DNA of 60,818 nucleotides from a virus, in the IMG/VR virus record IMGVR_UViG_3300026382_000017, positions 1 through 60,818 of that record, one strand, 5' to 3'. The position numbers and the translations under genes are program-made. This document shows, one piece after another, positions 54,968-55,243 of the stretch. The stretch's first letter is position 1, and every line of letters begins with the position of its first letter. Below the pieces are notes generated by a model that saw only the letters and a list, made by a program, of their open reading frames with translations, was not told where the DNA came from and did not search any database.

Positions 54968-55243
54968 AGACTGCCATACCGAAAACCAAAAACACAGGGC
55001 TTTGACAATTGAGCCTGTCAATTGTTAATTAAATTATATAATACTGAAAACAGAAGAGGCTGATAACCTTAATACAGTTATTTTATGTTAAAAGAGTAAC
55101 GCTTAAAGTTTAAAGAATAAATAATAACGATTAACTACTAACTTCTAATTATTAAAGGGTAACGAGTAAAAAGTATAAAATCCCGGAGTTAGTTTAGTCG
55201 TTTCTGTGTTACGCAGGTTTGTACCGGGCTGGTGTGGCAGTCT
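54968..55243 (+). ncRNA. Candidate structured RNA
   Basis: 276 nt with no reading frame, closed by a 13-bp helix between 54968-54980 and 55231-55243 (one G-U pair). Inside are a hairpin 55002-55012/55018-55028 (11 bp, one G-U) whose GCCTG loop can pair with CAGGGC at 54995-55000 as a pseudoknot, a 5-bp helix 55182-55186/55224-55228 and inside it hairpin 55204-55208/55212-55216. TAGTTTAGTCG (55190-55200) is identical to the D-arm stretch of the phage tRNA-Asn, and GAGG-CTGATAA-CCTT (55056-55070) looks like an anticodon arm. It fits no RNA family I know. Confidence 0.6.

Follow-up and report, generated by a model that had tools for sequence, protein, structure and literature searches.

What does a gene-packed virus genome do with 276 nucleotides (nt) that hold no gene and whose two ends pair with each other? 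The question is raised by positions 54968-55243, + strand, of virus record IMGVR_UViG_3300026382_000017, whose full length of 60,818 nt was analysed and is called the window here. We found, with very little room for doubt, that this stretch is a member of a large family of folded RNAs of large phages and many bacteria, in which the RNA follows a gene of the phrog_1491 protein family and carries an array of about twelve heptamers. Calculation shows the order of parts that defines the family, its helices, the array count and the coupling to the gene. An earlier note on the window, made from its letters alone, had proposed a structured RNA in a gene-free stretch, with a 13-bp closing helix and a possible pseudoknot, and all of these were borne out. 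The upstream partner gene and the 7-nt array at 55091-55176 went unmentioned there.

The RNA starts 6 nt past the stop codon of the partner gene (54351-54962), and between that stop at 54962 and the next start at 55354 the + strand has no open reading frame (ORF) of at least 60 amino acids. Its ends pair over 13 bp, 54968-54980 (AGACUGCCAUACC) with 55231-55243 (GGUGUGGCAGUCU), exactly except for one G-U. The + strand folds at -73.8 kcal/mol, with a z of -4.94 and 0 of 200 dinucleotide shuffles as low, whereas the fold of the - strand is ordinary (z -1.52). From 5' to 3', the RNA comprises the 5' arm of the closing helix P1 (54968-54980), a conserved GAAAAC (54981-54986; GAAAAC or GAAAAT in 36 of 77 RNAs), the overlapping 5' strand of helix P2, AAACC (54983-54987), a middle region, 12 heptamers (55091-55176) with the consensus A-A-A-G-N-U-Y, a conserved AAAU followed by the 5' strand of helix Px, CCCGG (55182-55186), the 3' strand of P2, GGUUU (55216-55220), the 3' strand of Px, CCGGG (55224-55228), followed by CU, and the 3' arm of P1 (55231-55243). 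In the middle region, at 54998-55027, the minimum free energy fold weakly suggests a hairpin, 55002-55012 with 55018-55028, and an equally tentative alternative is a second pseudoknot, 54998-55002 with 55011-55015 plus 55003-55010 with 55020-55027.

The nucleotide sequence by itself leads to no family: blastn of the RNA against 50,697 phage records gave no recognisable relative, only short weak matches that all lie downstream of the element, and scanning viral contigs with single proteins, those of three neighbouring genes, gave no confirmed relatives. The upstream gene belongs to phrog_1491 (E 9.7e-40), which has matches in 670 phage records, and among eight such records inspected, all seven annotated ones have a same-strand annotation gap of 372-606 nt after the gene. 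Scans with alignments of the partner protein gave viral loci (the best 80 of 189 relatives for a first alignment, plus 28 for a second) and 65 loci in bacterial genomes, including many Lysinibacillus species, Bacillus, Domibacillus, Solibacillus, Paenibacillus, Clostridia and many cyanobacteria. The RNA follows nearly all of these relatives, be they in T5-like, KIL-like, Vequinta-like, Lactococcus or Clostridioides phages, in Firmicutes or in cyanobacteria. Across the family it is about 234-410 nt long and has the order P1, GAAAAY, P2, a variable middle, the 7-nt array, AAAU, Px, a loop with P2', Px', CU and P1', where a prime marks the 3' strand.

A descriptor of the 3' block, AAA[UC]C-Px...Px'-C[UA]G, matches 154 of the 178 regions downstream of the gene, compared with 7 of 534 sequences obtained by dinucleotide shuffling of those regions. 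Since it had been read off some of the same sequences on which it was counted, further tests were made in other ways. A covariance model of the 3' block was built from 73 relatives, leaving out L020, L147, L154 and the window itself, which was kept for testing (L147 and L154 remain among the 77 non-redundant RNAs used for P1). This model found the RNA of the window once, in the right place, with E=3.4e-12, E-values being rough here. Of 27 further loci, which had escaped the descriptor or had not gone into the model, 25 proved to have the RNA, one of them, L119, only at 0.0021, while L007 and L182 yielded no RNA. Applied to 11 whole records, it gave one match each, at the expected place, in nine, and two complete gene-RNA cassettes about 157 kb apart in a 349-kb phage (L030 and L034); in the remaining record, of an Erwinia phage, the match is short, weak and elsewhere, and confirms nothing. 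Separately, the region after 3645 in L007 (Erwinia phage pEa_SNUABM_37) looks like a divergent relative that the model does not match, and its middle region, by eye, has tRNA arms in permuted order.

The helices hold up against controls in which strands are swapped between RNAs. P1 reaches a score of at least 7 of 10 in 54 of the 77 non-redundant RNAs, compared with 58 of 1527 swapped arm pairs, and the window scores 9.5. The misses include a KIL-like clade and Lysinibacillus, where P1 seems to contain bulges. Compensatory changes keep P1 in the relatives, contrary to the uncompensated substitutions that, according to the earlier note, would speak against the helix. For Px, all five pairs form in 54 of 56 RNAs that were anchored by P1 alone with nothing required of Px (the exceptions are L120 and L148), whereas with swapped strands the three central pairs form in a mean of 9.1 and a maximum of 19 of 56. 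AU, UA, GC, CG and G-U pairs all occur at these central positions, which covary strongly, and in the 3'-block alignment, a set in which Px pairing was required, the covariation score of 0.533 falls to 0.105-0.169 when partner columns are slid. P2 is at or below -5 kcal/mol in 36 of 54 RNAs and in 169 of 1062 swapped pairs. Because P2 joins a 3' strand within the loop of Px to a 5' strand that lies beyond this loop, P2 and Px together form a pseudoknot. The middle domain may contain another pseudoknot, of H type, which is weakly suggested (28 of 57 RNAs against 25 of 114 shuffles at score 11), and a helix P4 inside Px is clade dependent, with 59.6 percent of cells paired.

These pairings also bear on whether the element acts as RNA at all. 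Twelve short direct repeats resemble iterons, and the ends are inverted repeats, so that a DNA-level element, such as iterons or a replication or packaging site, could be imagined. But such an element would not account for three long-range paired helices including a pseudoknot, for how often T-G pairs occur on the + strand (at position 6 of P1, in 27 of 77), for an orientation after the partner gene that is always the same, or for fold significance confined to the + strand, and we give it next to no chance.

The array is the most regular part of the RNA. In 58 of 61 RNAs, nucleotides 7 nt apart are identical more often than expected, and the signal recurs at 14, 21 and 28; no such excess is seen in the partner coding region (6 of 60), in two stretches further downstream (26 of 56 and 14 of 56) or upstream (25 of 59). 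In the hidden Markov model of the unit, A-A-A-G-N-U-Y, the U, Y, A and A are strong or semi-strong positions, giving a UYAA motif every 7 nt. The modal count is 12 units, as in the window; 33 of 77 RNAs have exactly 12 and 62 have 11-13, compared with 0-5 in shuffles, and the array score is above every shuffle in 76 of 77. The counts look alike when models are trained on half of the RNAs and run on the other half, and a relative richer in G+C (L045) keeps the 7-nt rhythm. In 32 RNAs, a gap of at least 2 nt follows unit 7.

Identical short sites at regular spacing in a phage could also serve as a sponge, titrating an RNase or RNA-binding protein of the host, such as a ring-shaped regulator, while the phrog_1491 protein only stabilises the RNA; the RNA-only copies in bacteria described below would suit this explanation. 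However, the same array persists across hosts that are as far apart as cyanobacteria, Firmicutes and Vibrio or E. coli, which makes a single host target unlikely. Titration would moreover leave the link to the gene unexplained, and we consider it unlikely.

How tight is that link? In 54 clear cases P1 starts 6-70 nt past the stop codon, a spacing that is too short for a separate promoter in most of them. Terminator-like sites lie within 90 nt after P1 in 24 of 76 cases, compared with 3 of 212 control stretches; in the window, no terminator is predicted after the RNA. The gene-RNA unit of the window is bracketed by two perfect consensus promoters of the form TTGACA-17-TATAAT, each matching at 12 of 12 positions on the + strand. 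The first (54296-54324) would serve the unit itself, and the second (55257-55285), the strong promoter that the earlier note had correctly placed after the RNA, is that of the next gene (55354-56136) and not of the RNA. From this arrangement of promoter, gene, RNA and end, we infer that the phrog_1491 transcript would include the RNA as its 3' part.

Gene and RNA also co-occur. Among 151 genomes from the family to which one Lysinibacillus genome belongs, 26 have both, 5 the RNA only, 2 the gene only and 118 neither (p=5e-22), in a table that scores two further genomes with weak gene matches as gene-less and retains the probable chance matches G025 and G030 and the decayed G079. In the two gene-only genomes, a more sensitive search finds the RNA. 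The five RNA-only genomes comprise two with a complete RNA and 13 heptamers, one with a decayed 3' fragment (G079), and G025 and G030, whose matches lack an array and look like chance. The complete copies, L192 2118-2191 and L193 2269-2342, have kept the core and the 13 heptamers in genomes with no strong match to the partner protein, and in another genome an additional RNA-like copy, L194, lacks a gene. Thus the RNA is usually but not always beside the gene, which favours action in trans.

The close spacing, the terminator-like sites and the strong co-occurrence would also be expected of a cis-acting 3' untranslated region, in which the RNA only sets the stability or translation of the phrog_1491 mRNA, for example if the protein bound the array and so limited its own synthesis. 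Against this stand the gene-less copies with their intact core and array; furthermore, 12 repeats, a pseudoknot and embedded tRNAs exceed the needs of a stability element. We therefore regard a purely cis-acting role as distinctly unlikely.

The partner protein of the window, with 203 amino acids, is predicted by AlphaFold to be mostly helical with short beta elements (mean predicted local distance difference test score 95.8, predicted template modelling score 0.74), and its most conserved positions include two S-N-A-x-T-like motifs, near residues 73-77 and 193-199. Its closest fold is DIP1984 of Corynebacterium (PDB 3kdq), with a VIA Z of 12.4 over 151 residues at 7.2 A and a next row at 7.8, the Z being below the caution level of about 13 for helical proteins, which easily reach such values. 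Foldseek gives E 1e-3 to the same structure, and sequence profiles point in this direction too (E 0.0017; and E 0.0002 for a match far under the cut-off). The curated cut-offs of DIP1984/DUF6847 are not reached (NF038048, 21.5 bits against 70; PF20935, 19.1 against 27), and these searches and models together suggest that the partner may be a distant DIP1984 relative. The PHROG label "tail fiber protein", carried across the 670 phage records, is probably a misnomer, since the gene is also found in bacterial chromosomes and in cyanobacterial tRNA arrays. None of four proteins matched the anti-phage defence families of PADLOC-DB at E<=0.01.

tRNA genes recur around the cassette. They are nearby in 85 of 181 loci, with at least ten tRNAs in 24, and the bacterial ones are nearly all cyanobacterial tRNA arrays. 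Moreover, 13 of the 181 loci, some near-identical, hold a whole tRNA inside the RNA region, before the array; these inserts, in L119, L163, L168 and ten other loci, lie in the first 250 nt past the partner gene and have various anticodons. In the window, ARAGORN finds a tRNA-Ser gene near the RNA (56397-56487) and a tRNA-Asn gene at 32065, so that only one of the two tRNA genes that had been described as near is so, the other being 23 kb away. The resemblance of internal stretches to a tRNA D arm and anticodon arm, and with it the idea of tRNA descent or mimicry, found no support: the RNA of the window has no tRNA or transfer-messenger RNA match by ARAGORN or by Rfam up to E 10, and some relatives instead hold an intact tRNA as an insert. 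A tRNA origin of this RNA was rejected on these grounds.

The embedded tRNAs and the cyanobacterial copies in dense tRNA arrays could mean that the RNA is a tRNA carrier or a processing intermediate of a tRNA array, comparable to GOLLD, with the heptamers as a spacer. But most loci, the window included, have no tRNA inside, and the array, being the most regular part, is no random spacer. Such a carrier is in our view very unlikely.

What, then, might the RNA do? From the sequence we infer protein binding, a ring and a tRNA-related role. In the best reading, for which we see an even chance, this RNA is a scaffold that offers its heptamers as binding sites to a multimeric phrog_1491 protein, and whether a ribonucleoprotein (RNP) forms with that protein on the array is likewise evenly balanced. 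The core, P1 and the pseudoknot, would fold into a compact closed platform that presents a mostly unpaired array of about 12 UYAA sites 7 nt apart. Because a near-constant number of equal, evenly spaced sites lies beside a small conserved protein gene, each site would take one identical subunit of a multimer, most likely that of the protein encoded upstream. The size of the resulting RNA-protein particle would thus be fixed, with 12 or 7+5 subunits arranged as a ring or a short filament, and since the core pseudoknot and P1 would join both ends of the array, a ring is favoured. This particle would probably serve translation or tRNA upkeep in infection or stress; it might hold, guard or deliver tRNAs, or act on ribosomes. 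A role of this kind is suggested by the frequent position of the cassette within or beside tRNA arrays and by the tRNA that some copies have in the middle, and we put forward a tRNA- or translation-related function tentatively, at clearly less than even chances. Similarly speculative is the full proposal of a new kind of RNP, in which a pseudoknotted RNA counts about 12 UYAA sites and thereby sets the size of a ring formed by its own protein, which the phage or the cell encodes. With a tRNA included in the RNA in some cases, this would be a tRNA-protecting or translation-rescue device common to large phages, Firmicutes and cyanobacterial tRNA arrays.

Several observations weigh against the scaffold reading. 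The RNA-only copies are stable, so a local gene is not always there, and the array could bind another protein; the closest fold relative of the partner, DIP1984, has no known function. P2 of the window is itself weak, its -4.9 kcal/mol just missing the -5 line, 15 of 77 RNAs fall outside 11-13 units, and 96 of the 181 fetched loci, Lysinibacillus among them, have no tRNA.

Published work provides some context for a link to tRNA supply. Excerpts of PMC10272220 describe a long tRNA operon in Anabaena that is silent and turned on under translation stress, and a repressor of it that also controls rtcB; in the mutant of this repressor, the genes with raised levels include one of TIGR02452. A possible connection of the cassette to this trn operon was sought in plasmids, where no cyanobacterial plasmid matched. 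For phages, a passage of PMC10264068 proposes that their tRNAs replace those cut by host defences. The occurrence of one RNA-protein cassette in large phages, T5-like and others, in soil bacilli and in the tRNA arrays of cyanobacteria is relevant to a long-standing question, namely why there are tRNA clusters in phages. A near-constant count of regular, subunit-sized sites in an RNA is rare, and stoichiometry, structure and function are directly testable in laboratory phages such as the T5-like DaisyDussoix (Bas31).

The neighbourhood of the cassette is otherwise variable: scanning 74 of 82 bacterial and 89 of at least 150 phage neighbour ORFs gave no stable third gene. In phage loci, the commonest other neighbour is PhoH-like (10 of 89 ORFs), with five PIN domain matches too, and in bacteria, 3 of 74 ORFs match TIGR02452 (microbial PARG-like). 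Going by translations and not by family matches, RtcB seems to lie beside L157 and RNA ligases beside L127 and L163. The Rfam skipping-rope RNA occurs near the cassette in a Paenibacillus genome (L118 3522-3650) and in Lactococcus phage AM1 (L006 215-293). The 60.8-kb record itself encodes portal, prohead protease, ribonucleotide reductase and ThyX proteins, and the nearest relatives of its prohead protease are in Vibrio phages of the T5-like group, among them River4 of the Demerecviridae. The match of this protease gene (29154-30800) spans only about the first 150 of 548 residues; the remainder is without a match in Pfam and could represent another head protein fused to the protease.

Is the family known under another name? 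In the window, Rfam 15 reports only the two tRNAs at gathering score and chance-level matches at E<=10 in the stretch, and in 28 relatives the element and its surroundings give no match other than tRNAs, embedded or adjacent, with skipping-rope and cobalamin matches elsewhere in the loci. Membership in GOLLD, ROOL or another Rfam 15 family was rejected for the RNA of the window and of these 28 relatives, which, embedded tRNAs aside, reaches no gathering score. No published description of the RNA was found in searches of open-access papers, although a preprint, unpublished work or an unindexed motif list may contain one, and the family, which has no Rfam match in the scanned sequences, is apparently unregistered.

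The comparison with GOLLD and ROOL by context only, as drawn in the earlier note, is a fair one. Like this family, GOLLD, as described in excerpts of PMC12286853, is large and ornate, occurs in phages and bacteria close to tRNA islands, and can have tRNAs in a linker. ROOL, in the same excerpts, is a phage and prophage RNA near tRNA islands, with pseudoknots; no protein partner is known for it and no heptamer array is reported there. Membership in either family would also mean a homo-oligomeric cage of RNA only. GOLLD is often longer than 800 nt, in contrast to about 234-410 nt here, and unlike GOLLD the present RNA has a linked protein gene, an array of 12 heptamers and no Rfam match. On the protein side, DIP1984 (PDB 3kdq) has the closest fold, although the partner falls below both family cut-offs. 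On the RNA side, the parallel is TRAP with its trp leader RNA, in which about 11 regularly spaced short motifs are bound, one per ring subunit. The likeness lies in regular motifs of near-constant number, here about 12 with one every 7 nt, whereas the motif differs, (G/U)AG there and UYAA here, the proteins are unrelated, and in the present family the sites, which the partner protein may bind, belong to an RNA with a structured core.
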